A DNA stretch of 34,942 bases, from NCBI GenBank assembly GCA_028823035.1, contig JAPKCI010000043.1:1-34942 (forward strand). The letters run 5' to 3'. Under the pieces are notes generated by a model, which saw nothing but the letters and a program-made list of their open reading frames with translations, had not been told where the DNA came from and ran no database searches. Position numbers and translations under genes: made by a program. This document shows positions 1 through 30,826 of this stretch, piece after piece; position 1 is the stretch's first letter; each line of letters opens with the position of its first letter. The DNA is from Rubripirellula sp. (GTDB lineage Bacteria > Planctomycetota > Planctomycetia > Pirellulales > Pirellulaceae).

Positions 1-53
1 TTCCGCCCTTTCCATCCTTCCCGCCTTTTCCATCCTTTCCGCCTTTTCCATCC
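1..53 (-). repeat. 18-bp coding tandem repeat in the TadE-like gene tail
   Basis: About three copies of an 18-bp unit (plus-strand form TTTCCGCCTTTTCCATCC, with small differences) run to the window edge and may continue beyond it. On the minus strand each unit encodes K-D-G-K-G-G, giving Gly at every third residue. The period is a multiple of three, so the frame is kept. A separate 15-bp duplication at 61-90 encodes K-S-K-S-G twice. Confidence 0.85.
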
Positions 54-535
54 TTGTCGCCAGATTTAGACTTGCCAGATTTAGACTTCTTGTTCTTTTT
101 CCCGCCTGGTCCTGGCGGTTCATTTCCTTCCGACTCGGCGGGCATGACACAAACACCGAGCAGTGTCTTGTCAGTCATGAAACTGGGTGCAAACCAAGAC
201 ACGTCGGTGTAGGGCACGCTGACATTCACCGAAACGGTCTCGAAGGGTCCCAATTCAGTTGGCGGATCTGGCGAGACGGTAACCGTATAGCCCGTCAGGT
301 TTGCCATATCCATGGCAGTATCGACAATCTCGATCACATCGCTCTTGTCACTATATTCAGCAACTGCAACCCGACATCCAGCCCGGGCAGCTTCCTCCAA
401 AACATGTTTGACCATAACGGCACGCCCGATTTCAATGCTACCGAGCAGAAAAACAAGCAGGACAGGAATAACCACAGCCAACTCGACCATGGCGGCGCCG
501 CGTCGCTTAAGCAGTTTGCGATAAGAAACAATCAT
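1..535 (-). CDS. TadE-like pilin/assembly protein, C-terminus cut by window edge
   Basis: The minus frame opens at ATG 533-535 and stays open to base 1 (178 codons visible, no stop). Residues 1-13 are basic (MIVSYRKLLKRRG) and are followed by a hydrophobic segment at about 14-43 containing Glu18 in the context AAMVELAVVIPVLLVFLLGS. This matches the class III prepilin-type N-terminus of TadE-like proteins of tight-adherence (Flp) pilus systems. A globular part follows to about residue 145, then a low-complexity basic tail (KKNKKSKSGKSKSGDKDGKG) passing into K-D-G-K-G-G repeats. TadE family members are membrane-anchored pseudopilins needed for pilus assembly. The Lys/Gly tail is not part of the usual family and may be an expansion. 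No tad neighbours are visible because the window ends here. Family call is good; the full length is unknown. Confidence 0.8.
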   Translation of the reverse strand, partial: MIVSYRKLLKRRGAAMVELAVVIPVLLVFLLGSIEIGRAVMVKHVLEEAARAGCRVAVAEYSDKSDVIEIVDTAMDMANLTGYTVTVSPDPPTELGPFETVSVNVSVPYTDVSWFAPSFMTDKTLLGVCVMPAESEGNEPPGPGGKKNKKSKSGKSKSGDKDGKGGKDGKGGKDGKGG

Positions 536-732
536 GGAACGTCCCAGATACTTTTGCGGGATTATGAAAAGTGATGTCCCTTGGACATGCCTAGTTGAAC
601 GCTATGCTGATCTCAGATATTGGAAGCGATTTATCATGTTTATATCCATCTGTTTTTCTAAAGATGGGTGGAATTTGCTGGTTGCAACGATTACATCGGT
701 CGCATAAACGGGGCAGCAAATCCCTCTTTCCG

Positions 733-2103
733 TCAGCTGATGATTTCATGAACAACCCGTCCCAGTCCGTTGGTCGCGGTCTGTTCACGACCACCGAACT
801 GATAGGTAAGGCGTTCCTCATCGATCCCCATCAGATGCAGCACGGTGGCATGCAAATCAGGCATGCTGACGGAATCCTGGATTGGCAAGTATCCAAATTC
901 GTCTGTTTCGCCGTATCGGAACCCACGTTTCACTCCACCGCCAGCCATCCACATCGTGAACCCATAGGGATTGTGGTCCCGGCCATCCTTGTCTTGCGAC
1001 ACCGGTGCCCTGCCAAATTCTCCACCCCAGATAACGAGGGTCGAGTCAAGCAACCCACGTTGTTTGAGGTCTGCTAACAAAGCGGCAATCGGCTGATCTG
1101 TTTCGTAGCAGTTTTTGGCATGTCCAGTGACCAGGTCACCGTGCTGATCCCAGTTATTCTCGTATCCACCGTGATAGATCTGTATGAACGGCACTTCCTG
1201 TTCAACCATCCTCCGTGCCAACAGACACTGCGCCCCAAAATACTTGCACTTGGGATCGTTGATCCCATACTGATCCAGAGTAGCCGCAGTTTCGGATGAC
1301 AGATCAGCCAATACGGGTACGGAAGACTGCATCTTATAGGCCGTTTCAAACGCTCTAGCCCGAGCCTCCAACTGCTGGACACCGGAGTAACGCTCAATTG
1401 AACGTTCATTGAGCCAATTCAGCAATTCCAACTGTGCTTCCTGCGTCGAACGCGAGAGACCATCGGGACGCTTAAGATGAAGAATTGGATGCTTTCCTGA
1501 TCGGAACAACGTTCCCTGATTTTCCGCAGGCAGGAACCCGGAACTCCATAGATTGGCACCTCCCTCGGGTGCGCTTCGATAGTCGTACATGACCACATAT
1601 TCGGGAAGATCACGTTTTTCGTTAGCCAATCCATAGGTCGCCCACGACCCAACATTGGGTGCCCCAACCTGCTGGCGTCCGGTATTAACAACGTAACAGG
1701 CTGGGACATGATTCTGTTCGTTTGAACCACACGCATTCAAGAACGTGATTTCATCAACGTGCTTGGCCAACCGCGGAAATACACTGGACACAAACTGTCC
1801 ACTCTCACCGTACTGCCGGAACTCATAGGGCGATTTCATGATATTGCCGGGATAAGGAAACAGTGTCCGAATCTTTCCGGGGAACGGCTTGCCGTCCATC
1901 TTCGTCAACAATGGCTTGGGATCAAACAGATCGATGCCGGACGGGCCACCGTTCATGAACAACCAAATCACTGATTTGGCTTTGTTTGCCGGAAGATGGA
2001 CATTGGTGGAATTGGCCGCACCTTCACTCTGCAGCATTGACGAAAGTGCGAGCATCCCCATACCGCCCCCAGCGCGCGACAGCAGTTCTCTGCGGGTCAA
2101 CAT
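733..2103 (-). CDS. DUF1501 protein, Tat-type export signal
   Basis: 456 residues. The N-terminus MLTRRELLSRAGGGMGMLAL carries a twin-arginine-type motif and a hydrophobic stretch, so export by Tat is likely. The core has the features of DUF1501, a family with an alkaline phosphatase/sulfatase-like fold: VIWLFMNGGPSGIDLFDPKP near residue 45, then LDSTLVIWGGEFGRAPVSQ and GRDHNPYGFTMWMAGGGVKR in the C-terminal third, and DLHATVLHLMGID near the end. Reaction and substrate are unknown for the family. It lies 43 bp downstream of the DUF1549/DUF1553 gene on the same strand, the standard planctomycete pairing, so the two are probably co-transcribed and act in the same exported complex or pathway. 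No clear terminator was seen between the stop and 600. Confidence 0.93.
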   Translation of the reverse strand: MLTRRELLSRAGGGMGMLALSSMLQSEGAANSTNVHLPANKAKSVIWLFMNGGPSGIDLFDPKPLLTKMDGKPFPGKIRTLFPYPGNIMKSPYEFRQYGESGQFVSSVFPRLAKHVDEITFLNACGSNEQNHVPACYVVNTGRQQVGAPNVGSWATYGLANEKRDLPEYVVMYDYRSAPEGGANLWSSGFLPAENQGTLFRSGKHPILHLKRPDGLSRSTQEAQLELLNWLNERSIERYSGVQQLEARARAFETAYKMQSSVPVLADLSSETAATLDQYGINDPKCKYFGAQCLLARRMVEQEVPFIQIYHGGYENNWDQHGDLVTGHAKNCYETDQPIAALLADLKQRGLLDSTLVIWGGEFGRAPVSQDKDGRDHNPYGFTMWMAGGGVKRGFRYGETDEFGYLPIQDSVSMPDLHATVLHLMGIDEERLTYQFGGREQTATNGLGRVVHEIIS

Positions 2104-2146
2104 GGTAAACAGACTCTATTCAATGCGGAAAAAACGGGGATTGCGA

Positions 2147-4534
2147 TCAATTGAAGTACCAGAGTTCATTACTCATCAGCAGAACCTGTACAAAATCACC
2201 GATTCCATTGCCCTGGTCCAGGAACTGTTGCACACGAATGATTTCTTCTTCGTCAGCTCTTCGTCCCAACAGACGCAAGAACAGGCGTTGTATGGCGCCC
2301 TCGACCTGGTACCTGCTGTCAGCAAAGGCGCGTTCTGCAATCTGCTCTGACTGCGTCCGAATGAAACTGTCATTCCACAAGGCAAGAGATTGGGTGGGCA
2401 CCGTTGTGTCGCGACGCTGAGGACACGAGATGATGCCTCCCGGGAAGTCAAACAGGTGAAGAAAGGGAAGCGGGTTGGTTCTTTTTTTTATGGCGTAAAC
2501 GCTACGACGCCAGATTTCCGGACGATCAATGATCACTGAGGGCCAGGTTGCATCAGGATCATCTGCATTACGATTCAAGATGGCAGCTCGTGGTATCGGC
2601 GACTGAAAACCAGGCCCATACAAGCGATCGTTCAAGGCACCGCTTTGATATAGCAGCGAGTCGTGGAACATCTCTGCCGTCAAGCGTTGTCGCCACCACC
2701 TGTGAAACAACGCGCGATCAGACTCCTGAGCTCCATCAGATGCCTGACGGTAGGTCGCACTGCAAAGAATCAAGCGGTGGATATGCTTGATGTCCCACCC
2801 GTGGGAAACCAACTCATAAGCGAGCCAGTCCAGCAGGTCCTGATGACTGGGAGCAGCCCCCTCACGACCCAAATTGCTGGGTGTGTCGACAATGCCTTTC
2901 CCGAAGTGATGCAGCCACACCCGGTTCACTGCGACTCTTGCAGTCACAGGACCTGCACCCGCGTGCAGATCCGTGATCCAGTTGGCAAACGCTGCACGGG
3001 GTCTCGCAACGTCTGCCCCAAAGTCCCATGCTTGCCAGTGGTGATGGATCTGGCTGTCCTCCGCGATTCCAATTGATTCTGGAAATCGAGGCCCCACTTC
3101 GTCACCCGGTTGGTTCAGCGATCCGCCCCAAAGCACAGGTGTCATTTCAACGCCACTGCCATTGATTACTAATCCCTGTAGCGGTCGCTCGGGAAGACTG
3201 GCATAGGCGTTGTCGATTTGGCTTATCAGAAAATCATACCGCTCGCGATCTTTTTCAAGCGGCTCTGTATCATCATCGATGAAGGAATCATCCACGAACA
3301 GGCAACGATTACACATCGAGAGCAACCGCAATTGTTCCTTGTTATTCGGATCCAGAGGCAGACGCAGGATTGCTTTCTCTTCATCCGAAAATTCGAGTTC
3401 TTCGATGTTTTCATCCCGCGCACTGAGCAGCCGCAACTGCCGGATCTCTTCCTCGTACGCATCCACGTCCCGAAACGCTTGACCGGCATCTCGATCCAAA
3501 TAGCCAATGTCCCGCTGCGTCCCACGAAAGACAGAAACGAGCGCATAGTACTCGTCAATGGCGACGTCATCGTAGGGATGGTCATGGCAGCGTGCACAGC
3601 CAATGCTGATCCCCAGCATCGCACTACCGATGGTCGACACGACATCGTCTAACTCATCAAATCTTTCGGACTCTTGAGGCATGAAAGTATTGAAAGGAGC
3701 CGCCGTCAGGAACCCGGTCGCCGCAACCGCTAATGGATTTTCACCAGCCAGTTCGTCCCCGGCAATCTGCCACCTCAGAAATTGGTCCCAGGGCAAGTTG
3801 TGATTCAATGCCCAGATAACGAAGTCCCGGTAGGGATAGGCATTCGGGCGCAGCTCATCTTCTTCATAACCGTTGCTGTCAGCATACCTTGCAAGATCCA
3901 GCCAGTACTGCGCCCAATGCTCGCCAAAGCGATGACTATTGAGTAGCTTGTCAACCAAACGATCGAGTGCTTCACCATTGACCGATGGAGAGTCGGAAAG
4001 TTCTGTGTCCAAGGGTGTCAGCCCCGTGATCCCCAATTGCAGTCGGCGAATCAAAGTTTGCTTGTCGGCTGGTGGCCCGAGGGTTTTCCCATGCGATTGC
4101 AGCTTTGCTTCGATAAAATAATCAATGGAGTTACGCGCATAGCGATTGTCGCTAGGTGGAACAGTCACACGGTCGAGTGCTTGAAACGCCCAATGACCAT
4201 CGACACCCCCAGATACCGTGCTGGCAAACGGCGACTCAATCGCAGCCGAATCGACTCCGGTCTTCTGCATCCGCTGGCTTGCTAACTCAATCAGGCGCGC
4301 CCATCTCTCGGTTTCAATCAGCACTTCCCTGTCTTGAGCGGCGACTTCGGCAAGTCGCTTAAGGTAGGGGCGTTGTGCCACAGCCTCACGCTTCGATTTC
4401 ACGACGGACGTCAGAGCCGAATGGAACTCACCAGCCTGCAACCTAAGCAGCCAATGACTGACAACAAAAAAGATGGAACAGACACCCACAAAAATGATCA
4501 ATCTTCGAATCGCGTTGTGTGACGGAAGATTCAT
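2147..4534 (-). CDS. DUF1549/DUF1553 protein without the usual PSCyt1 cytochrome domain
   Basis: 795 residues. Residues 1-33 form a basic start and one hydrophobic segment (LIIFVGVCSIFFVVSHWLL), a signal anchor or uncleaved signal. The DUF1549 part includes SIDYFIEAKLQSHGK, HRFGEHWAQYWLDLARYADS and GFLTAAPFNTF. The central motif IGCARCHDHPYDDVAIDEYY contains the C-x-x-C-H of this family. The DUF1553 part follows in the C-terminal third (ARVAVNRVWLHHFGKGIV, HRLILCSATYRQASDG). Unlike most relatives, including the 957-residue paralogue at 21683-24556, no PSCyt1 c-heme domain precedes DUF1549; residues 35-110 are instead helical and charged. The gene is first in a pair with DUF1501. Function of the family is unproven; a periplasmic redox or polymer-degradation role is only inferred. 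Confidence 0.92.
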   Translation of the reverse strand: MNLPSHNAIRRLIIFVGVCSIFFVVSHWLLRLQAGEFHSALTSVVKSKREAVAQRPYLKRLAEVAAQDREVLIETERWARLIELASQRMQKTGVDSAAIESPFASTVSGGVDGHWAFQALDRVTVPPSDNRYARNSIDYFIEAKLQSHGKTLGPPADKQTLIRRLQLGITGLTPLDTELSDSPSVNGEALDRLVDKLLNSHRFGEHWAQYWLDLARYADSNGYEEDELRPNAYPYRDFVIWALNHNLPWDQFLRWQIAGDELAGENPLAVAATGFLTAAPFNTFMPQESERFDELDDVVSTIGSAMLGISIGCARCHDHPYDDVAIDEYYALVSVFRGTQRDIGYLDRDAGQAFRDVDAYEEEIRQLRLLSARDENIEELEFSDEEKAILRLPLDPNNKEQLRLLSMCNRCLFVDDSFIDDDTEPLEKDRERYDFLISQIDNAYASLPERPLQGLVINGSGVEMTPVLWGGSLNQPGDEVGPRFPESIGIAEDSQIHHHWQAWDFGADVARPRAAFANWITDLHAGAGPVTARVAVNRVWLHHFGKGIVDTPSNLGREGAAPSHQDLLDWLAYELVSHGWDIKHIHRLILCSATYRQASDGAQESDRALFHRWWRQRLTAEMFHDSLLYQSGALNDRLYGPGFQSPIPRAAILNRNADDPDATWPSVIIDRPEIWRRSVYAIKKRTNPLPFLHLFDFPGGIISCPQRRDTTVPTQSLALWNDSFIRTQSEQIAERAFADSRYQVEGAIQRLFLRLLGRRADEEEIIRVQQFLDQGNGIGDFVQVLLMSNELWYFN

Positions 4535-4991
4535 GGATCGAACAGAATTGTTAGCAGGAAACCGTGCAGGCTACTTCGCCCAGAGTCTCTTAGCTCATTC
4601 CGATAAGATGTCAAAGGTTAACCATTGTGAAGGGACGTTTTGTTACAAGAATCGCATCGACGAGGCACCTTTTTCCAACTGGGACACCTGCATGCCCGCC
4701 GTTTGCCGCCGTCAACCGCCATCAGAGAACCACAAGCAACTGGCTGCAGCAGTTGCCCAGCAACTTGATCGAAACCAAACTAAACGACACCCACCAAAAA
4801 GCATGGTGACACCGCTAGGGCTGCAACCACCGGGGAATTTCAAGTTCGTTCGCGTCGCCGCCTCAGTCTGCCAACAGCTGTGACCGGTTGAACAATCGTG
4901 CTAAACCCGACAACCGGAAAAACCGGAAAAAACGCACAGTCAACTGAGACGAACGCCTGTTAGCCCCATGACACGAATGACAATCCCTATA

Positions 4992-5043
4992 ATCCGCAAG
5001 GCACCCACCGATGGCTGATCCGCAAGGCACCCACCGATGGCTG
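4992..5043. repeat. Tandem duplication, 26-bp unit, 2 perfect copies
   Basis: Copies at 4992-5017 and 5018-5043 are identical. Each begins ATCCGCAAGGCACC and ends CGATGGCTG. A partial third start (AAATCCG) follows. The sequence is unlike the other arrays of the window. Confidence 0.95.
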
Positions 5044-5198
5044 AAATCCGTCAGTTGCACCTAAGGATACGGGAGTCGAAACAGGCTCTGAAGTGAAAGC
5101 AATGCGTCCCCTGTACAAATTCCGCTCCACACACGGGCAATACCCGTTCTCCGTAGAAAATGCTGATCACTTTGGCAACCCTGCACTCCAGGACGCGA

Positions 5199-5294
5199 CA
5201 ACCTGAAACGCAGCGAACCCAACAACCTGAAACGCGGCGAACCCAACAACCTGAAACGCGGCGAACCCGACAACCTGAAACGCGGCGAACCCGA
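5199..5294. repeat. Tandem array, 24-bp unit, 4 copies
   Basis: Copies at 5199-5222, 5223-5246, 5247-5270 and 5271-5294. Each begins CAACCTGAAACGC and ends GCGAACCCRA; copy 1 differs at one internal base and copies 3-4 have G in place of A near the end. The unit is a multiple of three, so frames crossing it stay open; this explains several spurious ORFs. It ends 105 bp before the MFS start. Confidence 0.95.
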
Positions 5295-5399
5295 AGCTCT
5301 GGCCATAAAAGCCCGCCGTCGCATATCCAGAAATGACCCGTCCGAAATCGCAAGGCCGAGTTCGATCGACCTTTTCATCCTGATCAAAGTTCCGACCTG

Positions 5400-6629: not shown

Positions 6630-6743
6630 AGACTGCCGCATGCGTTGCCAGCTTTCACAAACGATGACATGAAGAGTTTTCTGCCATGCCGTCATCATGC
6701 AGTCGGTTCAGGGCGAGTCCACGGAATGCGTTACCCATTTCAC

Positions 6744-6773: not shown

Positions 6774-6801
6774 TTCAACGCATGAATTGGATCAGCAGAA
6801 C

Positions 6802-8034: not shown

Positions 8035-8121
8035 GTAAAAATTCCTGAAAGTTTTCGAATGGAACAATAGAAGGCCGAAACAAAAAACAAAACGATCAGT
8101 TGCATCTCAATGCATGATCAA

Positions 8122-11218: not shown

Positions 11219-14200
11219 ATGAATCACGCTACCTTCACCTCCCATGCAACTGACAGTGTCGCAACTGATGGTTATGTCATCATCGACAATGAACCCTGGT
11301 ACCGGATCTCGTGTGTCCATCGGATGCCGGAGTTCTTCGTCAGTCCGGTGAGTTCCGGAGATCACTGGATGTTCATTTCCAGTCAAGGTGCTCTGTCAGC
11401 GGGACGAAGGAATCCCGATTCTGCTCTGTTCCCCTACTATTCGTGCGACAAACTGATCGACCAAGCTGCCTTCACCGGCCCCAAAACAATCATTCGGCAA
11501 TCGATCGAAGGGGGAGAGGTTCGAACCTGGGAACCCTTCACAGGACGAGTTCCACCCCATTCATCGACTTCGCGATACCTTTACAAGAATTCTCTTGGCA
11601 ATCGACTGTTGTTCGAAGAAGTCAATCGTTCGATGAACCTCGCTTTCAGCTACAGTTGGACTTTCGGTAACCGCTTTGGTTTCATTCGCAACTGCCAGTT
11701 ACGCAACCTCGGGGCTGAATCGACCCACGTTTCTGTCCTCGACGGCATCCAGAATCTGCTACCCGCAGGTATCGACCAGAGTTTTCAACTGCGGTACAGC
11801 AATCTCGGCGACGCCTACAAAAAAGCCGAGTTGTCCGATCGAGAGAAAATTGGGATTTTCTACCTGAGTTCCATTCCAACCGACCGGGCCGAGCCAAGCG
11901 AAGGGCTCCGGGCGACGGTCGTGTGGCAACAGGGGCTCCACGATCCAACGGTCCTGTTGAGTTCGAAACAACTGGATCGTTTCCGGGACGGCATGAGCGT
12001 TGCGGAAGAACATGATATCCGAGGACATCGGGGCGCGTATTTCACCGTTTCGCAACATGAACTCGCCGGCCATTCGGTTCAGCCATCCTCAACTGAACCT
12101 CAGGTAAGCTGGAACCTCGTCGCAAACGTGAATCGAGATCACACCGATGTGGTCAATCTGCAAAAGCTTCTGAGCGAATCAGCAGGTATCGAGTCCTTGA
12201 TCACGTCAGACGTTGCAGAGAATGAGCGGCGATTGCTCGCCATTGTTTCCGCAGCCGATGGCAGGCAGGCTGGGAACAATCAACTGCGTGTCCAGCGTCA
12301 CCAATCCAACGTTCTTTTCAACGTGCTGCGTGGTGGCATACCGCAACACCAGTATTCGATTTCCGCAAGTGATTTCCACTCCCACTTGCTGCAATTCAAT
12401 CGTGATGCGGCAGAGCGGAATCCCGAATTTCTGGCACGTATTGCCAATGAGCCAAATCTGAACCTTGACGATCTGATGGCAGAAGCCATCCAGACCGGGG
12501 ACCAGGACCTGCAGCGGATCTCGTTGGAATACCTGCCACTGACGTACAGCCGTCGACACGGCGATCCGACACGACCATGGAATGCTTTTTCGATTGACTG
12601 TTTCAATGCCAACGGTACCGAAAGTCTCTGCTACGAAGGCAACTGGCGGGACATTTTCCAGAACTGGGAGGCACTGGCGCTGTCATTCCCAGGCTTCTCA
12701 CGCAACATGGTGTTTCGTTTCCTGAATGCTTCGACAGCCGATGGTTATAACCCGTACAGAATCAGCGAGGACGGTTTTGAATGGGAAACACCAGACCCCA
12801 ATGACCCGTGGGGAAACATCGGCTATTGGGGTGACCATCAAATCATTTATCTGTTGAAACTGTTGGAATGGTCCCAGCGGTTCCACCCCGCTGAACTCGA
12901 TCGGTATCTGGCCACCGAATGTTGCGCCTACGCACAGGTCCCCTATCGAATTCGCGACTACCGTTCGATTCAGAAGAACCCTCAGGAAACCATCGACTAT
13001 GACTACGAACTGGCTGATGCGATCGAGCAGCGTGTTTCCGAAATCGGTTCCGACGGTCAATTGCTGGCCAACCACCGGGCATCACCCTACCACGTGACGA
13101 TGCTGGAGAAGCTTCTGATCCCCGCCCTGGTGAAAATCACCAATTTCGTGCCCGGCGGTGGAGTGTGGCTGAACACCCAACGGCCGGAATGGAACGACGC
13201 AAACAATGCTCTTGTTGGAAACGGGTTGTCGGTTGTCACAGCCTGTTACCTGCGACGGTATTGCGATTTCATGATCCAATGGCTTTCCCGCAGCGGTCTC
13301 CCCGCGTCCATTCCGGTATCCCAAGAGATTTGCACCCTGTTACAGAACATTGGCAGGACTCTTGACACAAACGCGGAAGTCTTCAGCGGGACGTTGAATG
13401 ATAGCCAACGCAAACAACTGGTAGATGCCCTATCCCAGGCAGGATCAGACTATCGCCAACAGCTATACGCGAATGGTTTATCGGGAACCAAAACCGAGCT
13501 TCCGTTGGTGGATTGTGTGCAATTACTGCAACGATCCCTCGAAATGATCGATCACACGATCCGATCCAATCACCGCTCTGACGGTCTGTATCATTCCTAC
13601 AACCTGATCACGTTGCAGGACGAGGGTTATGGCGTCACAACGCTTCACGAAATGCTCGAAGGTCAGGTTGCTGTACTAAGTAGTGGCCTGCTCAACGCCG
13701 AGGAAGTTGTTCAAACTCTGGACGCCCTGCAAGAGAGTCCGATCTATCGAGAGGATCAGCAAAGCTACATGCTTTATCCTGATCGGCAACTTCCAGGATT
13801 TCTGCAGAAGAACATGGTTGCAGAAGAATCATGGAAGCGTTCGCAATTGCTGAAGAAACTTGTCGCCGAGGGTGACACGTCGGTCGTGCGGCAGGATGAA
13901 GATGGGGGCGTCCATTTCAATGGAGACTTCCGCAATGCTACAAACCTGAACACCACGCTTGATGCGTTGTCGTTACTGCCTGCCTATGCCGACCTTGTAT
14001 CGCGTGACCGACGTCTGATCGGCGAACTCTATGAAAACACCTTTCGCCACAAGAGTTTCACAGGTCGCAGCGGCACCTTTTTCGCCTACGAAGGTCTGGG
14101 TTCGATTTACTGGCATATGGTCTCGAAACTGGCTCTGGCTGCCATCGAAAACTGTGTCTGGTCGAAGCAGACAACGGACAAACCGGAACTGGAGAATCGC

Positions 14201-14707
14201 CTACAGCAACACTACCGCGATATCCGTAACGGTATGGGGCTGACCAAGTCGCCCGCACAATATGGTGCTTTTCCAGCGGACCCCTACTCACACACGCCCC
14301 AAGGTGCTGGTGTCCAGCAACCAGGCATGACAGGACAGGTCAAGGAAGACATTCTTTCGCGTCTGATCGAATTGGGAGTCCGAATCGTGAATGGCCAACT
14401 TGCATTCGATCCATTCATGTTCGAAGCCTGCGAGATATTGAAGACAGATTCCAGGATCCAGTTCATCAATCTTGAAGACGAACATGTTGAACTCTCGCTC
14501 CCAGCCGGCAGTTTCGCTTTTACACTCTGTCAAACCCCCATCATCTACCATCAGTCGATGAATACCAAAATCGTAGTAACACGAGCCGATGGAGCCGATG
14601 AACGGGACACGTTGACTCTTACCAAAGATGAGACGGCGAGCATTTTCTCACGCACTGGCCAGATCAAGCGAATTGACATTCATTATGACTTTCAGCAAGT
14701 CCCTTGA
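11219..14707 (+). CDS. Probable GH149-type beta-1,3-glucan phosphorylase (GH94-related)
   Basis: 1162 residues, no signal peptide, so cytosolic. The N-terminal 300 residues are beta-rich (WYRISCVHRMPEFFVSPVSS, YSWTFGNRFGFIRNCQLRNL), as in the GH94/GH149 sandwich domain. A helical (alpha/alpha)6-type region follows with CYEGNWRDIFQNWEAL (Asp478) and WGNIGYWGDHQIIYLLKLLE. RPEWNDANNALVGNGLS holds a W-N-D motif (Asp660) matching the position of the catalytic Asp in GH94 DWND motifs. A Gly-rich segment, HTPQGAGVQQPGMTGQVKED, lies at about 1022-1041 and may line the phosphate site. The size fits GH149 (about 1100 residues), whose members phosphorolyse beta-1,3-oligoglucans to glucose-1-phosphate. 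Context with a GH16 gene supports this. A beta-1,2-glucan phosphorylase of GH94 is the main alternative. Upstream Shine-Dalgarno is weak. Confidence 0.75.
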   Translation: MNHATFTSHATDSVATDGYVIIDNEPWYRISCVHRMPEFFVSPVSSGDHWMFISSQGALSAGRRNPDSALFPYYSCDKLIDQAAFTGPKTIIRQSIEGGEVRTWEPFTGRVPPHSSTSRYLYKNSLGNRLLFEEVNRSMNLAFSYSWTFGNRFGFIRNCQLRNLGAESTHVSVLDGIQNLLPAGIDQSFQLRYSNLGDAYKKAELSDREKIGIFYLSSIPTDRAEPSEGLRATVVWQQGLHDPTVLLSSKQLDRFRDGMSVAEEHDIRGHRGAYFTVSQHELAGHSVQPSSTEPQVSWNLVANVNRDHTDVVNLQKLLSESAGIESLITSDVAENERRLLAIVSAADGRQAGNNQLRVQRHQSNVLFNVLRGGIPQHQYSISASDFHSHLLQFNRDAAERNPEFLARIANEPNLNLDDLMAEAIQTGDQDLQRISLEYLPLTYSRRHGDPTRPWNAFSIDCFNANGTESLCYEGNWRDIFQNWEALALSFPGFSRNMVFRFLNASTADGYNPYRISEDGFEWETPDPNDPWGNIGYWGDHQIIYLLKLLEWSQRFHPAELDRYLATECCAYAQVPYRIRDYRSIQKNPQETIDYDYELADAIEQRVSEIGSDGQLLANHRASPYHVTMLEKLLIPALVKITNFVPGGGVWLNTQRPEWNDANNALVGNGLSVVTACYLRRYCDFMIQWLSRSGLPASIPVSQEICTLLQNIGRTLDTNAEVFSGTLNDSQRKQLVDALSQAGSDYRQQLYANGLSGTKTELPLVDCVQLLQRSLEMIDHTIRSNHRSDGLYHSYNLITLQDEGYGVTTLHEMLEGQVAVLSSGLLNAEEVVQTLDALQESPIYREDQQSYMLYPDRQLPGFLQKNMVAEESWKRSQLLKKLVAEGDTSVVRQDEDGGVHFNGDFRNATNLNTTLDALSLLPAYADLVSRDRRLIGELYENTFRHKSFTGRSGTFFAYEGLGSIYWHMVSKLALAAIENCVWSKQTTDKPELENRLQQHYRDIRNGMGLTKSPAQYGAFPADPYSHTPQGAGVQQPGMTGQVKEDILSRLIELGVRIVNGQLAFDPFMFEACEILKTDSRIQFINLEDEHVELSLPAGSFAFTLCQTPIIYHQSMNTKIVVTRADGADERDTLTLTKDETASIFSRTGQIKRIDIHYDFQQVP

Positions 14708-14710
14708 CCC

Positions 14711-14791
14711 CTTCACGACTTTCCGGTTTCATTCACACTTCACGACTTTCCGGTTTCATTCACACTTCACGACTTTCCGGTTTCATTCACA
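14711..14791. repeat. Tandem array, 27-bp unit, 3 perfect copies
   Basis: Copies at 14711-14737, 14738-14764 and 14765-14791, each beginning CTTCACGACTTTCC and ending CATTCACA, plus a partial fourth. The array starts 4 bp after the phosphorylase stop. The unit is 9 codons, so a plus frame entering from TTG 14704 stays open into the GH16 gene. The end of the phosphorylase gene (CATTCATTATGACTTTC) resembles part of the unit. Confidence 0.95.
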
Positions 14792-14892
14792 CTTCACTTC
14801 ACTGTATTGGCACCGATCGGATGATGACTCACCAACAGACACACCATCGGCAACAGCCTGTCACTGGAAACCTACTGCAAAAGGCAACTTTC

Positions 14893-15717
14893 ATGATTTC
14901 ATATTGCTTCCCAAGACTGTTCTGTTCATGCGTTTGCTTGACAGTATTTTCGCTACCGGCTGCTGCTCAGGATAGATCGAATACTTCCGATCGAAAACTC
15001 GTATGGGAGGACAACTTTGATGGTAACTCTCTTGATTATTCCAAATGGGGCATTGAAGTGAATGCTTTTGGTGGCGGAAACAGTGAGTTGCAAATTTTCA
15101 CAGACCGAAAAAAGAACGTTCGTGTCGCCAACGGCACACTGATTCTCGAAGCGCGGCGTGACCATGCCAACATCATGGGAACGACTCGTGAATACTCCTC
15201 GGGACGCGTCCGCACAAAGAACCGCGGCGACTGGAAATTTGGACGCATCGAAGTCCGCGCCAAACTGCCATCAGGAGCTGGCCTCTGGCCAGCGATCTGG
15301 ATGCTGCCAACCGAGGACAAGTATGGCGGATGGGCCAAAAGTGGTGAAATCGACATCATGGAATTCCGCGGACAGAACACGAATGAGGTACTCGGCACGC
15401 TGCATTACGGAGATGCGTGGCCCAAAAACGCCTCGTCGGGTGACGCTTACAAACTTCCAAGCGGCAACTTCACCGATGACTTTCATACCTTCGCTATCGA
15501 TTGGCAGGAAGGCAAAATCGAATGGTACATTGACGGAAAACTGGTCCAGACTCAAACAAAGTGGAGCACCACTGGCGGGCCGTTTCCCGCCCCGTTTGAC
15601 CAGAAATTCCACCTGCTACTGAATCTCTCGATCGGTGGTGGATTCGTTGGACCCGTCGGTGCCAACACCAAGTTCCCCGCTCAATACCTGATCGACTACG
15701 TTCGCATCGATCAGTGA
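14893..15717 (+). CDS. Secreted GH16 endo-beta-glucanase (laminarinase type)
   Basis: 274 residues from the ATG at 14893 (AAGG about 10 nt upstream). This start gives a compact signal peptide, MISYCFPRLFCSCVCLTVFS ending at about LPAAA/QD; longer starts through the 27-bp array would bury it. The catalytic signature is GEIDIMEFRG with Glu152 (nucleophile), Asp154 and Glu157 (acid/base), the E-x-D-x-x-E of beta-bulge GH16 enzymes that cut beta-1,3 or mixed-linkage glucans. Other family landmarks are LVWEDNFDGNSLDYSKW, GRIEVRAKLPSGAGLWPAIW and FHTFAIDWQEGKIEWYIDGK; FHLLLNLSIGGGFVG lies near the end. It lacks carbohydrate-binding modules. Last gene of the operon; it would release oligosaccharides for the symporter. 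Confidence 0.95.
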   Translation: MISYCFPRLFCSCVCLTVFSLPAAAQDRSNTSDRKLVWEDNFDGNSLDYSKWGIEVNAFGGGNSELQIFTDRKKNVRVANGTLILEARRDHANIMGTTREYSSGRVRTKNRGDWKFGRIEVRAKLPSGAGLWPAIWMLPTEDKYGGWAKSGEIDIMEFRGQNTNEVLGTLHYGDAWPKNASSGDAYKLPSGNFTDDFHTFAIDWQEGKIEWYIDGKLVQTQTKWSTTGGPFPAPFDQKFHLLLNLSIGGGFVGPVGANTKFPAQYLIDYVRIDQ

Positions 15718-15747
15718 TATGATGAACTGCAGTCTGCCGTAGGAAGC

Positions 15748-15770
15748 TTGCCGATCGATTGAATCGGCAA
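15748..15770 (+). terminator. Stem-loop after the GH16 gene
   Basis: TTGCCGAT (15748-15755) and ATCGGCAA (15763-15770) pair perfectly over 8 bp with a 7-nt loop, 30 bp past the GH16 stop. Only a short interrupted T run (TCGCTTTG) follows, so termination efficiency is uncertain. The position at an operon end favours a terminator or 3'-end stabiliser. Confidence 0.5.
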
Positions 15771-15824
15771 TCGCTTTGATCAAGCACGGAACCCAGAATG
15801 AACTGGCGGGTCATTTGGCAGAGG

Positions 15825-15936
15825 CATTCCTCGTCAAGCCCCGCCTGATCAACATTCCTCGTCAAGCCACGCCTGATCAACATTCCTCGTCAAGCCACGC
15901 CTGATCAACATTCCTCATCAAGCCCCGCCTGATCAA
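15825..15936. repeat. Tandem array, 28-bp unit, 4 copies
   Basis: Copies at 15825-15852, 15853-15880, 15881-15908 and 15909-15936. Each begins CATTCCTCGTCAAGCC and ends CGCCTGATCAA. Only two positions vary: one C/A in the middle and one G/A in copy 4. Each unit contains the palindrome TGATCA. The 330-bp region between the GH16 and DUF4956 stops holds only this array and the stem-loop at 15748. Confidence 0.95.
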
Positions 15937-16046
15937 TACGACCGGATTCGGTTCGCAAATGACCTACTCTGCAAACTCCGTAACCACACGCCCCGTTGGC
16001 AGGCAGCAACCGTTTTCTGGCAGCAGGTCACGAGCAGCGACATCTC

Positions 16047-16706
16047 TCAAGTGCTGTTGTCTGCACCGCCGGGTGACGCTTCATACCAGACACTGAGAGT
16101 GGCCGAGGCGTTTTTCAGATCAATCGACTGTACCTGTACCCGCGAGATGGGGATGCCGGTCCGCTGAAGCAGGTCTGCCTCTAGCTCGAATTGTCGGTCG
16201 GGTGCCAAAAGTTCCAACCGATCATATTCCACGGTATGTTTGCGAGCTTTCTTCGGCGTCGCCACAACACCAGTATGAATCGTCTTTCCTCTTGCCACAA
16301 ATCCCTCTTTCAGCATCGCTGCAAAAAGAATCAACGAATTGACTGCGACAAGCTCGACGTAACTTGTCTTATGGTTGGACAACGAATTGATCACAGCGAT
16401 TCCGATCACAATGAACAAGTACGTCATTTCCTTGATTGGCAACGAATTCGTTCGATATCTGAGCACACCGAAAATAGCAAACAGTCCCAATGCCATTCCG
16501 ATGTCCAATTCAAACTTTTTCAGCGTGAAGCAGATGAAGAAGACCGTGATGTTCAACATACTTGCAGTGAAAGCGAACTCGCGATCCTGTTGGGTTGGTA
16601 AGATTGCAAAACGAACAATCAGAGCAAGAAAAAACAGATCAAACGCAAAACGGATGAACATCTTGTAAACGTCATCATCGTAAAGCGGGATTCCCAAAAA
16701 CTCCAT
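16047..16706 (-). CDS. DUF4956 membrane protein
   Basis: 219 residues from the ATG at 16706, chosen because GGAG lies 10 nt upstream and the sequence MEFLGIPLYDDDVYKMFIRF begins the family; the longer frame to 16769 runs into the repeat array. About four membrane segments (FALDLFFLALIVRFAIL-like, MLNITVFFICFTLKKFELDI, GLFAIFGVLRYRTNSLPIKE, MTYLFIVIGIAVINSL) are followed by a soluble C-terminal domain of about 80 residues (VEYDRLELLAPDRQ, GIPISRVQVQSIDLK). The motif GVLRYRT is typical of DUF4956. In many bacteria the family is encoded beside VTC-like polyphosphate polymerase domain proteins; no such partner is in this window. Function is unknown. Confidence 0.88.
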   Translation of the reverse strand: MEFLGIPLYDDDVYKMFIRFAFDLFFLALIVRFAILPTQQDREFAFTASMLNITVFFICFTLKKFELDIGMALGLFAIFGVLRYRTNSLPIKEMTYLFIVIGIAVINSLSNHKTSYVELVAVNSLILFAAMLKEGFVARGKTIHTGVVATPKKARKHTVEYDRLELLAPDRQFELEADLLQRTGIPISRVQVQSIDLKNASATLSVWYEASPGGADNST

Positions 16707-16768
16707 CGAACTGTTGCTCCTGTGCCTGTGGATGCTCCGAGACCCCGACTTGGCGGTACTGCCAACCA

Positions 16769-16848
16769 TGCCAGTTGACAGAGAACCGTGCCAGTTGACA
16801 GAGAACCGTGCCAGTTGACAGAGAACCGTGCCAGTTGACAGAGAACCG
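16769..16848. repeat. Tandem array, 20-bp unit, 4 perfect copies
   Basis: TGCCAGTTGACAGAGAACCG is repeated without change at 16769-16788, 16789-16808, 16809-16828 and 16829-16848. It begins 63 bp upstream of the DUF4956 start. Each copy contains TTGACA on the plus strand, which faces away from the only nearby gene. Confidence 0.96.
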
Positions 16849-16852
16849 TACT

Positions 16853-16892
16853 GGGTACCGAAGGACTCTACCGGGTGCCGAAGGACTCTACC
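16853..16892. repeat. Second 20-bp tandem pair next to the first array
   Basis: GGGTACCGAAGGACTCTACC (16853-16872) and GGGTGCCGAAGGACTCTACC (16873-16892) differ at one base. The unit is unrelated to the neighbouring array apart from an ACCG core, but has the same 20-bp period. Confidence 0.93.
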
Positions 16893-17149
16893 GTGCGTCT
16901 GATCGCAGTCGGCAGTGCTCCTTCATGTGACACCTCAACTAAATAACCTACCACACAACCATGTTGCATGATTTGTACTTTGGCTTGAACACCAACAACG
17001 GCATTGAGTTTCACGAAATCACGCACATTGGAACCAAAGATTGGGAATGATCGTGGTTGACGGATTGTGCATAAGATTCCGACAAACCGGATACTCTATT
17101 CGTTCTGACCAACGGTTGGCCCTGCTCCAATGCCATGGCACAAGTGAAT
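16893..17149. other. Spacer between repeats and sulfatase fossil
   Basis: No recognisable gene or RNA. The missing part of the sulfatase would be expected here on the minus strand, but no frame shows sulfatase motifs. Confidence 0.5.
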
Positions 17150-17409
17150 GACGCTTGCTTAGCGATTCAGTAACGATCGGATGATCCGGCAGGCACGGCG
17201 GAACAACGACCTGCGTTGGGTCTTTTCCTGCGGCCAAGCCTGGACCGGATTTGCAACCACGATGGGGCGACTAAGTCCCCAACAAAAAACAAAAGGGTGC
17301 ATCCTCGAGACACTGCTCCATGAAGTCGGCAAAGTTTGAGGCATAGTCCTTGTTTGACATCCCGGCCTTGGATTGGCGCAACTTGTGGCGGGCAGGCTCT
17401 AGTCCAGCA

Positions 17410-17506
17410 GGGTTTTCCGTTCGGCCTGGGTTTTCCGTTCGGCCTGGGTTTTCCGTTCGGCCTGGGTTTTCCGTTCAGCCTGGGTTCCAGTCAGCCTGGG
17501 TTCCAG
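17410..17506. repeat. 18-bp array inside the sulfatase pseudogene
   Basis: Four copies of GGGTTTTCCGTTCGGCCT (17410-17427, 17428-17445, 17446-17463, 17464-17481; the last with one change) are followed by a 16-bp variant GGGTTCCAGTCAGCCT (17482-17497) and a partial copy. On the minus strand the edge copies are continuous with sulfatase codons on both sides (TGMGWNPG before, NPAG after), so the unit seems to be duplicated gene sequence. Confidence 0.93.
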
Positions 17507-17836
17507 CCCATTCCTGTGTAACCCGTCACCTAGCCAATGTCCTTCAACATGGACGTATACGTCACGAAACGAGCGGGCAGTGTACTGTGGATGTTTCCCG
17601 CTTCCGCCAACCGTCAAATGTGTTGCCCTGTCAAGATCGCGGTCCGCGAAGGCCCACAGGTCGGGGCATCACAAACATCATACGTGAAACGGATTCCCTC
17701 ATCCGCAACACGATCCAACGCGGGCGTCTGAACCACCTTGTCGCCATTGCCGCCGGTGTGTGCATAACTTTGATCATCCGAAATACAAAACAGGACATTT
17801 GGACGTTCAGCCTGCGTCCTTGCCAGGGGCGCAACG

Positions 17837-17878
17837 GGCATGCACAGAATCGCGGCCGGCATGCACAGAATCGCGGAC
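17837..17878. repeat. 21-bp duplication in the fossil signal peptide
   Basis: GGCATGCACAGAATCGCGGCC (17837-17857) is followed by a copy at 17858-17878 with one change. On the minus strand it duplicates seven codons (A-I-L-C-M-P-x) of the sulfatase signal-like region without changing frame. Confidence 0.92.
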
Positions 17879-18039
17879 ATGTAGGAACAGCCTACGACCG
17901 CGAAACGCGGCGGACGAATCAACGCAACACTCGGCGTTGAATCGATGGTCAAGACAACTCCCAACGGCCCCGGTGCTGCGGCACACGGTTGGCTGGCCGT
18001 AAAAGACAGCAGCGACACAGCAGATTCCATCGTGTCAGC

Positions 18040-18320
18040 ACGATAAGCCGTTCGCTGCAAACGATGCACCTCTCCCCACGGCTTGCGCCCGTCGCCATGC
18101 AGTTCTTTCAATTGCCGGGCGACCTTGCCAAGAGCAAGCAACTGTTTTTGACCATCGCCCTCGTCTTCTTTCAGATTACGAAATCCCCTACCACTCTTCG
18201 TACCAAGCAATGCACAGCAGGTCAGTCGTTGAGCCCTTGTCGGCATTTCCGTCCCACGCTACCAGGGCATCGACATAGGCCTGCAACTTTGCTGCTGTCT
18301 GAGGACCTCGCCTTGACTCA
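18040..18320 (-). pseudogene. Fragment of a penicillin acylase family (Ntn hydrolase) gene
   Basis: Two minus-strand frames together read like the C-terminal part of a penicillin/acyl-homoserine-lactone acylase beta subunit: AAKLQAYVDALVAWDGNADK with STTDLLCIAWYEEW at about 18315-18190, then, after a stop and a frameshift, LKEDEGDGQKQLLALGKVAR and GDGRKPWGEVHRLQR at about 18180-18045. The P-W-G-E-V-H-R motif is a family landmark. The Ntn nucleophile region and everything upstream are missing, and the expected sequence after VHRLQR is not found. The fragment abuts the sulfatase fossil. Amide hydrolysis would have been the ancestral activity. Assignment rests on motif memory, so it is moderate. 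Confidence 0.5.
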
Positions 18321-19260: not shown

Positions 19261-19265
19261 TTACA

Positions 19266-24556: not shown

Positions 24557-24782
24557 GTGAAGATACTGAGGCGGGAAACAGGTAGGAGGGTCAATTCAGA
24601 ACAACCGGCAAGACCAGACCACCAAGCGGGGCCCGAATTTTGACAACCGGCATCAACCCCCATTCTAGGAACAGATCGTGAACAACACAAACTTGCACGG
24701 CTGAGAGCAGATAGCGTTCAAAAACAAGCCCAGTCGGCCTCCCCGCGGGCCTCCGTGATTTGCCACCACCCGTAAAAACCGA

Positions 24783-25320
24783 TCACTTTCCAGAATAACG
24801 CTCGGCGTACTCGGGCAATGCAGCAGCAGCATCCTCTGGAAAACGATTCACAATCATCTGCAAACGCTGCCGACGCACTGGAAATTTTTATCGAGAGGAC
24901 TGACTTCGACCTACTGCTGCGGGTCTTGCTCAAGATCGTGAAAACTTCCCTGATTATCGATAACGAACTGCCAGTCTCTGATCATGCGAACATCACCGTA
25001 CTGCGTATAGATCCAACTACGTTTCTCGAACGGGTCCTCGCTGCCACGCAGACTGGGAACAAAGCATTTGCCATCCAGAATGGTCTGTTCAGGAATTCAG
25101 GAACCTGCATGCCCGTCAGTTCCAGAAAAGTGGGATAGAAGTCGGTGAAGTCAATCAAGTCACGTGATGCTCGACCGCCCGCGGTCAGAAACGGAGCGTC
25201 GACAACAAGCGGCACATGGACACCCAGATCCACAACGCGACCTTTTCTCTTTTCGTATTCAAAATCACCCAACGTCCCAAACACGGCGGAACCGTTGTCA
25301 CACGTAAAAACAACCATGGT
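24783..25320 (-). pseudogene. Decayed sulfatase, C-terminal half
   Basis: The minus strand reads ERTMVVFTCDNGSAVFG (the D-N-G metal-site region), then GVHVPLVVDAPFLTAGGR and DLIDFTDFYPTFLELTGMQV, standard sulfatase features. After a frame change it reads WIYTQYGDVRMIRDWQFVID and HDLEQDPQQ, a TAG stop, VEVSPLDK, an apparent one-base shift in an A run, and FPVRRQRLQMIVNRFPEDAA, ending YAERYSGK and TGA at 24783-24785. The N-terminal half with the C-x-P-S-R site is absent; the upstream neighbour is a DUF1552 fragment. The subfamily differs from that of the fossil at 17150-17890, so these are probably not two halves of one gene. Confidence 0.87.
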
Positions 25321-25745
25321 TCTTTCGCACAGACTAGTCTTGGCAAGCCGACCACGCAGACGATTGGCGTCCTGTCGGACAACATCAAGAATGCTGGCAT
25401 CTTCATTCAGAAATTGACGAGCCTGCTGCTTGGTCTTGGCGGGATTATCGACAAACAGATTGGCAACACACGAACCGGATCAGACTGTGTCGGTAAACGG
25501 ATACCAGCACGGGACCACGAGAAACCTACCGAGCCAAGCAACATCGAAAAAACAGGGTAGACCGCCCGAGGTGCTCAACCAGCAACTGATCCAGAGACAA
25601 GCGACGCTGAGGGTTGTCCGTGGTGTTCTTCATCTCGACACCATTGAGAAACGTATTGGAACACCCGTGTCCGCCACCCACACCTGGATGATCCAGATTG
25701 GTAAAGGCAGTCATCTCGTCAGGATATGGTTGCAAGGATTCCAAC
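25320..25745 (-). pseudogene. Decayed DUF1552 gene, internal fragment
   Basis: One minus frame (25744-25526) reads ESLQPYPDEMTAFTNLDHPG, VGGGHGCSNTFLNGVEMKN and RLSLDQLLVEHLGRSTLFFR, matching the N-terminal third of DUF1552; compare FTVFSGLDHGTEAQGGHGG and ISVDQKAAQLVGAATRYSS in the intact protein at 28503. After a frameshift a second frame reads LFVDNPAKTKQQARQFLNED and ASILDVVRQDANRLRGRLAK, corresponding to the middle of DUF1552. The first 70 or so residues and the C-terminal half are missing. It runs directly into the sulfatase fragment at about 25320. Confidence 0.85.
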
Positions 25746-25809
25746 AGCGAAGGCAGCTAGTGGAAAAGCAGTCATCCACAAATCCTCAATTCCATACTCT
25801 TAAGATCGC

Positions 25810-28506: not shown

Positions 28507-29792
28507 GCCTTTACCTCCAAGCCATTCAAGGTACTCTTGGCCGTTCCAAAGCGGTCGGTCTGCACGCCAAAACGTTGCAACATGGAAATGAACAGATTCC
28601 CGGCGGGCGTGGCAACTTTATGAGCCTCATCCTTGAAATAGGATTTGTGTTCACCATGGCGAAAACCGCCTCCTGCCAACATCAGCGGCAGGTTTTTGTT
28701 GGAGTGTGAACTGGCATTCCCCATCCCCGAACCAAACAACACCATGCTGTTTTCCAGCAATGACTTGCCGTTGTTTTCCTGCACCGATTTCAAGTGTTCA
28801 AGGAACCGGGCAAATTGGCGTGTGTGGAATTGTTCAATCACGGACAATTCAGTGATGTAATCCGGCACCTTGCCGTGGTGTGTCAACTGGTGATAGCCCC
28901 GACTGATTTTGAAGCCACCATAATTTGCGCCAATATCGGCCAACCCCAAAGTAATCACGCGAGTGGAATCGGTTTCCAACGCCAGTGCCATCAGGTCGTA
29001 ATAGAGAGGAACCCGGTCAACGAAGTCCATGGCGTCGGCAGCATCTGGCACCTCGTAGTCAACGCGTGGCTTTGCTTCATCCAACCATTGGCGCGACTGT
29101 GCCAACCGTCTTTCAACCTCACGAACAGATGTGAAGTAACGATCGATTTTCTGTTTATCCGCAACGCCCACTTTGCGTTGCAGGTAGTCAGCGTCTGTTT
29201 TGACGAGGTCGAGAATACTGACCCTTGCGGCCTGCTTGGCTTTCGTTGCTTGCCGAAGTTTCGGATCCATTGTTTGAAACAACAGCCGGTACAACAGATC
29301 AACCCGAGTGACGGGTGGAATCGACACCCCCGACGAGTTCCACGAGATCTGGTTATTGGGATCATTGCCGCTGGCAATCTGCAATGATGAGTAACGCGTC
29401 GCAGCACCCACGAGTTGGGCAGCTTTTTGATCCACCGAGATATTGGCCTCGGGCATGTTCCGTGAGTGTTTTGACAATACACCTGACAGATAAGCGTGCA
29501 CTCCGCCATGCCCACCCTGTGCTTCCGTCCCATGGTCAAGCCCTGAAAAGACAGTGAAGTCATCACGAAACTTTCTCAATGGCTTCAGACGCTCTGACAA
29601 CTGATAATCCGGCCCGATCGTTTGAGGAAAGAAAAGCTGAGGCACGAAACCAAAATTCAGACCAACACAGACCATCCGCATGGGCGTTTCCGTCGTCGCA
29701 TCAGCCATCGCATCAAGCGCAGGCAGCGCCATGGTGGCACCACCCATTCCCCGCAAAAATGTCCGCCTTTCCATCCGTTTCCTTATTTCCAT
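28503..29792 (-). CDS. DUF1552 protein
   Basis: 429 residues from the ATG at 29792, which has AGGA 6 nt upstream; ATG 29774, just before ERRTFLRGMGG and also with AAGGA upstream, is a close alternative, and a frame to 29840 is less likely. MERRTFLRGMGGATMALPAL is a Tat-like signal with a hydrophobic core. The body has DUF1552 features: FGFVPQLFFPQTIGPDYQLS, FTVFSGLDHGTEAQGGHGG, NISVDQKAAQLVG, RVSILDLVKTDADYLQRKVG, DRYFTSVREVERRLAQSRQW, LALETDSTRVITLGLADIG, NSMVLFGSGMGNASSHSNKN. It is related in fold to DUF1501. The gene is first in a two-gene operon with the DUF1592/DUF1588 protein, with overlapping ends. A partial copy survives as the fossil at 25320-25745, just beyond the partner gene. Confidence 0.94.
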   Translation of the reverse strand: MEIRKRMERRTFLRGMGGATMALPALDAMADATTETPMRMVCVGLNFGFVPQLFFPQTIGPDYQLSERLKPLRKFRDDFTVFSGLDHGTEAQGGHGGVHAYLSGVLSKHSRNMPEANISVDQKAAQLVGAATRYSSLQIASGNDPNNQISWNSSGVSIPPVTRVDLLYRLLFQTMDPKLRQATKAKQAARVSILDLVKTDADYLQRKVGVADKQKIDRYFTSVREVERRLAQSRQWLDEAKPRVDYEVPDAADAMDFVDRVPLYYDLMALALETDSTRVITLGLADIGANYGGFKISRGYHQLTHHGKVPDYITELSVIEQFHTRQFARFLEHLKSVQENNGKSLLENSMVLFGSGMGNASSHSNKNLPLMLAGGGFRHGEHKSYFKDEAHKVATPAGNLFISMLQRFGVQTDRFGTAKSTLNGLEVKA

Positions 29793-29887
29793 CACATTCC
29801 TGCTAATCAGTTTCTGAACAATCACGCGAATTTGATCCACTGCCGAACCTGCCGATAAATCAAGTGACAGGCTCCGTCGATCTTCAC

Positions 29888-30826
29888 CTAAAATAACCGC
29901 ATCACGCCGGACACCGACGTTCTATTCTCTGTTGTCGGTTCGATACCACGTCTCGTTGTACCGTATTCACCCTCTGTGTGCCCCGACAATTCATCCGTTG
30001 CGTCCAAACGAAAGGTGCTGGCAATCAAACCAATCACAGATTTGTCAAAAGTGATCTGCTCCGTGACCATTGGCTTGTTCTTCGCACTCCGTTCCATGCA
30101 TCCAAGAGAAATTAAGTTCCATGCATCCAAGAGGAACTAAGTTCCATGCATCCAAGAGGAACTAAGTTCCATGCGTCCAAGAGGAACTAAGTTCAGCAGA
30201 TAGCTGCGGACTCTGATCCCGGCCGGAACCAGTTTTTCTCCCTGTCGATTTATTCGCTGGTAACAACCAGATGCTGTCAGATCGACACGAAGCTTTGATT
30301 TCAATAATACCTCCTGCCGCTCGGCATATACGACAATTCGGTCATTGTCCTCATACTTGTCGGGTACGAATCCCGGCCCCGGTGCTACAAACTTCATCAA
30401 CCCGGTCGTCTGAAGCACACCGGACGTTACCGGCCGGCCATCCTGAAATCGATCGGTTTCATAAACCACTGATTCAATTTTTACTGACGGTGGCGTTGAT
30501 CGAACCGCATTCCCCGCCTGCAACAGTTGAGTCTGGGCGTCCGCATCCAGCCCAATAGGGCTGACCTCCACTTCACCCTCGAACACACAAACGTCTGTCT
30601 CGCCGTCCATGCCAACGGCAACACCGAACGCAGTCGCCAAGTCCACCACATCAACGGTTAGGGTTTCAACCTCAAATCCAATGGGCGACTCGATGCCCAG
30701 GAAAAATCGGCGAAAGCTCCGGAGGATTGGAATCGGGTGAAACCGGATAGCGAGAGGTCTTCGGAGATCGGGGTGAACGGGTTCCCGCAACGACCGGGCT
30801 AGAATTGAGAGGGATTCATTGGCCAC
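29888..30826 (-). pseudogene. FecR-domain protein gene broken by a tandem array
   Basis: The upstream frame (30826-30137) has IGFEVETLTVDVVDLATAFG with VAVGMDGETDVCVFEGEVEV, the FecR signature, then RSYLLNL and entry into the 25-bp array. Past the array another frame (to 29888) reads MVTEQITFDKSVIGLIASTF and RLDATDELSGHTEGEYG, which matches the tail that normally follows in planctomycete FecR-like proteins. The four-copy array is not a multiple of three in unit length and shifts the frame. The expected N-terminal membrane and anti-sigma-like part before residue 45 is not recognised, so the 5' end is also lost. Intact relatives usually accompany ECF sigma factors; none is near. Confidence 0.8.
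30091..30190. repeat. 25-bp array inside the FecR pseudogene, 4 copies
   Basis: Copies at 30091-30115, 30116-30140, 30141-30165 and 30166-30190, each beginning GTTCCATGCATCC (GCG in copy 4) and ending GGAACTAA (GAAATTAA in copy 1). On the minus strand one unit encodes L-V-P-L-G-x-M-E plus one base. Because 25 is not divisible by three, each copy shifts the frame. Confidence 0.95.

Follow-up and report, generated by a model that had tools for sequence, protein, structure and literature searches.

The short tandem arrays of this Rubripirellula genome are probably lineage-specific minisatellites, which were born in place as duplications of about 10-30 bp, lengthened by slippage and sorted by selection. 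We started from one stretch of 34,942 nucleotides, hereafter the window. It is contig C349 in a draft genome that totals 7,398,431 bases over 523 contigs and is 99.58% complete. The evidence comes from the arrays of the window, from their density in a larger sample of the genome and its relatives, from the sequences of their units, and from their distribution over genes, spacers and contig ends.

Tandem arrays in the window

An earlier note on the window had listed short tandem arrays at 11 places. TRF found an array at all 11, with borders at most 6 bases off, periods of 15-28 bp, 1.9-4.3 copies and matches of 92-100% (Table 1). The place listed as 17410-17506 resolves into two arrays, 18 bp × 4.3 and 16 bp × 2. 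Altogether, the window contains 14 arrays at a score of at least 50 and 12 at a score of at least 60, compared with means of 0.15 (maximum 2) and 0.02 (maximum 1) in 100 first-order Markov shuffles of the window, which confirms that the listed arrays are real. They consist of head-to-tail copies of a unit within 10-100 bp, as in a minisatellite or VNTR. The same note had also stated that none of the arrays is located in the core of an intact gene. For the window this is not strictly true, because two weak arrays missing from its list are inside predicted genes, and the arrays at 3-88 are in a predicted reading frame.

Table 1. Tandem arrays in the window, with their surroundings and the evidence for each.
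Positions	Unit and copies	Location	Evidence
3-55	18 bp, 2.9 copies	left contig edge, predicted Lys/Gly-rich reading frame (2-535, minus strand)	TRF
59-88	15 bp, 2 exact copies	in Lys/Gly-rich reading frame 2-535	TRF
4992-5044	26 bp, 2 exact copies and 1 base	spacer between DUF1549/DUF1553 gene and MFS gene	TRF; unique by genome BLAST
5196-5294	24 bp, 4.1 copies	spacer between DUF1549/DUF1553 gene and MFS gene	TRF and genome BLAST
13803-13834	16 bp, 1.9 copies, weak (score 57)	inside 1162-aa gene; missing from earlier list	TRF
14711-14797	27 bp, 3.2 exact copies	between stop codon of 1162-aa gene and GH16 gene	TRF; absent in G011 and L095
15825-15936	28 bp, 4.0 copies	GH16-DUF4956 spacer	TRF; different 23-bp array in same spacer of L095
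16764-16849	20 bp, 4.3 copies	immediately upstream of DUF4956 gene	TRF
16849-16893	20 bp, 2.2 copies, unrelated second unit	adjoins array 16764-16849	TRF
17410-17486	18 bp, 4.3 copies	sulfatase-gene fossil; about 1 copy in relatives	TRF and alignment
17475-17506	16 bp, 2 exact copies	overlaps end of array 17410-17486	TRF
17837-17876	21 bp, 1.9 copies	sulfatase-gene fossil	TRF and alignment
30091-30194	25 bp, 4.2 copies	border of short predicted ORF (30137-30826, minus strand, no Pfam match)	TRF
32368-32407	21 bp, 1.9 copies, 84% match, weak (score 59)	inside Na/Pi-cotransporter gene; missing from earlier list	TRF

The genes of the window encode DUF1501, DUF1549/DUF1553, MFS, GH16, DUF4956, sulfatase (as a fossil), DUF1552 and Na/Pi-cotransporter domains; no tRNA was found in the window, and mechanical ORFs pass through some of its arrays. 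A DUF1501 protein of the window shares 79-81% identity with proteins from MAGs labelled Rhodopirellula, Rubripirellula and Planctomycetaceae.

Array density in the genome and in other genomes

We defined a strong array by a period of 10-35 bp, a match of at least 90% and a TRF score of at least 70. The sample of the genome comprised 74 of 81 loci picked by contig number, window included, amounting to 964 of 7398 kb; the seven loci reading N were dropped, and contig ends were counted from the 74 kept loci only. It contains 162 strong arrays (1.68 per 10 kb), 114 of which are away from contig ends (1.18 per 10 kb). Contigs of at least 20 kb carry 55 in 475 kb, corresponding to 1.16 per 10 kb, or 0.99 when those at the ends are subtracted. 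Twenty other genomes of the genus, when pooled, had 16 strong arrays in 625 kb, a sample from which one locus reading N (L222) was dropped and in which an overlap of about 9 kb in G011, without any strong array, was counted twice. Individually, G003 and G019 have 4 per 100 kb each, and G012 and G001 have none in 100 kb and 80 kb, respectively. Five other families of the order yielded a single strong array in 400 kb. Among 80 loci around a DUF1501 gene there were 17 in 1191 kb, with none in the 284 kb of the 22 loci titled Verrucomicrobia; 50 kb of E. coli K-12 had none either. The array density thus exceeds both shuffled sequence and relatives, and the opposite outcome, which the earlier note had named as the one that would speak against a high duplication rate, was not seen.

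The species may not be unique in this respect. G014, G017, G020 and G021 reach 1.0-1.25 strong arrays per 10 kb, in small samples of 9-20 kb with one or two arrays each, and locus L093 carries four in 21 kb. These values suggest that the raised density is partly a trait of the genus, with the present species at its high end.

Contig ends and assembly

Arrays were also frequent where the assembly breaks. Of the 118 readable contig ends, 66 have an array within their final 55 bp and 52 show none, whereas only 2.8% of 4000 random internal 55-mers overlap one; this difference indicates that arrays fragment the present assembly. The last 55 bases are wholly periodic at 36 ends, as expected where an array longer than the assembly word of 55 forms a loop. 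A further 24 ends also hold unique sequence, where a single short allele should not break the assembly, and six have an imperfect array. Breaks of these two kinds would be more readily understood if the sequenced DNA contained several copy-number variants, and the copy number of the arrays may vary within the sequenced population.

Many arrays at the contig ends of a 523-contig draft could also raise the suspicion that the arrays themselves are artefacts of assembly. We give this explanation almost no weight. As mentioned above, 114 of the 162 strong arrays are away from contig ends, and the unit copies differ from each other at single positions. Moreover, like arrays are found in G003 and G019, long-read-like assemblies of one and nine contigs, and are thus not products of short-read assembly.

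Unrelated units, probably born in place

An all-against-all comparison of 246 units gave four pairs that were at least 85% alike, and none after letter shuffling. All four pairs involve arrays at most 90 bp from contig ends, and two of the four are identical units at the ends of the contig pairs C110/C125 and C330/C45. The ends of C110 and C125 overlap exactly by 55 bases, as do those of C420 (L253) and the window, whose first 55 bases are the last 55 of C420; these shared ends indicate two sides of one array. BLAST searches of the genome with three stretches covering nine of the 11 listed places (1-53 and 61-90 are outside) found no other copies of the arrays; besides themselves, the stretches matched only two sulfatase-gene relatives of the fossil at 17483-17793. 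The four similar pairs and the BLAST result bear out the claim that every unit is a different sequence. Recurring units of a mobile family, also named beforehand as contrary evidence, were looked for and not seen: one unit at several unrelated places, as a dispersed mobile repeat or transposed satellite would have, was not found.

We also searched for a motif shared by the units, using 202 arrays from the first 56 readable loci and their flanking segments. The k-mer excess was modest (AGGACC 6 vs 0.9 expected, ACAGG 18 vs 6.5 and CAGCG 24 vs 10.7, uncorrected for multiple testing), and no common motif was accepted.

Alignment with relatives points to where the units come from. The sulfatase genes of G011 (L069) and L095 have no repeat at the site of array 17410-17486, and what they carry there corresponds to a single copy of the unit. 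Since both relatives carry about one copy, the unit is resident gene sequence, as had been read from the fossil by itself. According to TRF, the seven arrays that the window has at 14711-17876 are all missing from the shared stretch of G011. L095 has one array in the matching stretch, 23 bp × 3.3 in the GH16-DUF4956 spacer, with a unit unlike that of the 28-bp array of the window.

Arrays in genes and spacers

For dividing the sample into coding and non-coding sequence, we used a retrained version of a simple, custom and unvalidated codon-usage gene caller, so that genes here are predictions. Away from contig ends, 103 arrays are found in 215 kb of non-coding sequence (4.79 per 10 kb) and 73 in 749 kb of coding sequence (0.97 per 10 kb). 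Arrays are therefore 4.9 times denser outside predicted genes than inside. When contig ends are included, 91 arrays are located in predicted genes, and the claimed absence of arrays from intact genes is untrue of the genome sample. Of these 91 arrays, 81 have a period divisible by three, versus 64 of the 143 arrays outside. Arrays in genes thus survive chiefly with unit lengths that keep the reading frame, which amounts to an in-frame filter. The lean to multiples of three in non-coding sequence perhaps comes from missed genes.

Because arrays are common in spacers, one might suspect a repeat family that is functional or mobile, for example binding-site arrays, CRISPR-like repeats or transposed satellites. 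This is highly improbable. The units do not recur apart from the four pairs near contig ends, the positions of the arrays are not common to the aligned relatives, and no Rfam family was found in the window at gathering thresholds. Nor do the arrays prefer one spacer orientation: for the 86 arrays with both neighbours known, the four classes range from 4.2 to 6.1 per 10 kb (divergent 6.1, forward 4.2, reverse 5.1 and convergent 5.7).

The proposal of the earlier note, frequent local duplication tolerated under weak selection, is thus upheld in part. The unrelated units, the local origin, the density and the non-coding excess are in its favour, but arrays occur in genes, too, and there they are nearly always in frame. 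Our best reading of the high density is a high birth or retention of local tandem duplications of about 15 bp, which are filtered by selection.

Period size and junction homology

Exact repeats in non-coding sequence have a preferred size. Periods of 14, 15 and 16 bp account for 14, 24 and 18 cases (56 in total), and periods of 10, 11 and 12 bp for 4, 2 and 7 (13 in total), although the latter are equally detectable. After Markov shuffling of the whole sample, a single exact repeat had a period of 10 or more. We also inspected the junctions of 39 clean two-copy arrays for homology extending beyond the unit. Sixteen have no extra homology (55% expected by chance), 22 have 0-1 bp (83% by chance), and 12 have at least 4 bp (1.9% by chance); removal of five probable worn three-copy arrays leaves 7 of 34 in the last group. 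Compared with chance, these counts suggest that microhomology contributes to some births, but not to most of them. Two new clues to the mechanism are that duplications of 14-16 bp are preferred and that many of them lack microhomology.

A plausible alternative is that the arrays arose by ordinary slippage during replication, acting between short direct repeats (ABA to ABABA), and that the lineage is special only in time or in weaker selection on spacers. The excess of two-copy arrays with at least 4 bases of extra homology is what such slippage would produce, and the single-copy ancestor of array 17410, as deduced from the window sequence, has GGGTT at both ends of the unit. However, the 16 arrays without extra homology, and the 22 with no more than 1 bp, do not fit, and the peak at 14-16 bp is unexpected if any pair of short repeats can serve. 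Spacer arrays are also far rarer in relatives, which have spacers, too (their spacer fractions being outside this comparison). We regard ordinary slippage as a real possibility, somewhat below an even chance.

Candidate repair genes

End joining would be another route. If staggered breaks were filled in and their ends then ligated by Ku-dependent NHEJ, the resulting duplications would be free of microhomology and have a size set by the stagger. We found no Ku gene at E ≤ 0.001 in the genome itself or in 21 other genomes of the genus; Ku was present in 6 of the 40 genomes searched, all of them from other families of the order. The absence makes Ku-dependent joining very unlikely and largely excludes it, and, as Ku is missing across the whole genus sample, it does not explain the difference between species either.

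In a model of unprocessed 5' flaps, a displaced strand of some 15 nt escapes cutting and becomes ligated, so that the flap length sets the unit length; this would amount to a mild natural state resembling a FEN defect. The period mode of 14-16 bp and births mostly without microhomology, with a minority helped by it, are consistent with this model. Its signature would be a PolA 5' nuclease domain that is lost or decayed, and no sign of either was found. The domain is present in the genome with 179.3 bits, a score similar to those of relatives, and the reading frame keeps motifs which we take to belong to the nuclease active-site region. It was found in all 40 genomes searched, leaving no gene loss to explain the difference. 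MutS and RecJ are also present, and the four families searched (Ku, PolA 5' nuclease, MutS and RecJ) revealed no simple gene loss behind the arrays. In yeast, rad27 mutants gain insertions flanked by short direct repeats as well as unstable minisatellites (PMC5677150), which lends the flap model some support. Like the arrays here, the yeast insertions are duplications that arise de novo and span tens of bases, in some cases with a little homology at their flanks. Yet the insertions described in that source have direct repeats, unlike 16 of our 39 two-copy arrays, and no loss of a flap-nuclease gene was found here. We therefore consider the flap model rather unlikely.

Returning to the minisatellite reading with which we began, a tandem duplication of about 10-30 bp of resident DNA (mode 14-16 bp outside genes) would start each array, and slippage between the copies would then lengthen it. 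Births or survivals would be unusually frequent in the species and raised in parts of the genus; the cause may be frequent births rather than slow loss, with replication as the source. Selection would let arrays build up in spacers and pseudogenes and would spare those in genes chiefly where the unit length is divisible by three. The likeliest birth step may be that lagging-strand or gap repair synthesis retains a short strand of some 15 nt that was displaced or misaligned, with microhomology perhaps helping a minority of births.

Relation to known repeats and implications

The arrays are of a known kind at an unusual density. Prokaryotic satellites, as catalogued by Subirana and Messeguer in 2019 (PMC6749651), are alike in being unique, unrelated arrays with short units; many of the short-unit satellites are described there as deriving from microsatellites or as forming families, which differs from the unrelated units and the 14-16 bp mode found here. 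In Table 1 of that work, Rhodopirellula baltica has 29 satellites (4.06 per Mb), and the highest densities are 23.0 per Mb for a bacterial replicon and 89 for an archaeal one. Using a satellite-like definition (at least four copies of 10-200 nt), our sample contains 66 in 964 kb, which is 68 per Mb, or 42.5 without contig ends; the comparison is a rough one, as TRF was used here and another program there. Bacterial VNTR loci used for strain typing (MLVA) likewise consist of short units in tandem and break or differ in copy number. The arrays here are far denser than such loci, and their copy-number variation is suggested only by the assembly breaks. The open-licence literature that we searched did not name planctomycete arrays of comparable density.

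A more far-reaching interpretation, which we put forward tentatively and hold to be doubtful, is that an altered replication or repair step in this lineage keeps writing tandem duplications of 14-16 bp into the chromosome. This length is close to one and a half turns of the helix, and the step would work without Ku and mostly without microhomology. The lineage would then be a natural mutator that produces one specific class of mutation, and it would continually supply in-frame repeats to proteins and spacers variable in copy number. If births are truly frequent, the species would offer many newborn tandem duplications in a bacterium that can be dated by divergence, and these would show directly what sets the unit size, whether microhomology is needed and how selection filters the arrays. 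Frequent births would also account for the hundreds of pieces into which such genomes assemble, and they would provide protein evolution with a source of in-frame repeats.

Tandem arrays at a contig end, around genes and in a relative

The last 55 bases of contig C420 from the same genome (right end of L253) are identical to window positions 1-55, and because of this end identity we consider that C420 probably adjoins the window, with the putative junction running across the 18-bp array.

For the GH16 gene, the mechanical ORF (window 14704-15717) extends back across the 27-bp array, from which it gains a repeated peptide at its start, and the true GH16 start probably lies downstream of that of the mechanical ORF. 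The spacer that carries the 28-bp array at 15825 in the window is occupied in a relative's locus, L095, by a 23-bp array with a different unit (L095:19125-19200). The sulfatase gene is longer in L095 and in the aligned locus of another relative, G011, than in the fossil copy of the window.

Tandem arrays located within a gene or gene fossil
Feature	Position	Description
Sulfatase gene fossil	window, about 16893-18250	three arrays inside
Two adjacent 15-bp arrays, in frame	L195:6479-6614	within predicted 1046-aa gene

Locus L093 of the MAG Plancto7 contains four strong arrays in 21 kb, with periods of 15-22, none of which (0/4) was found where the window aligns with this locus; Plancto7 is possibly a second species with a high array density.
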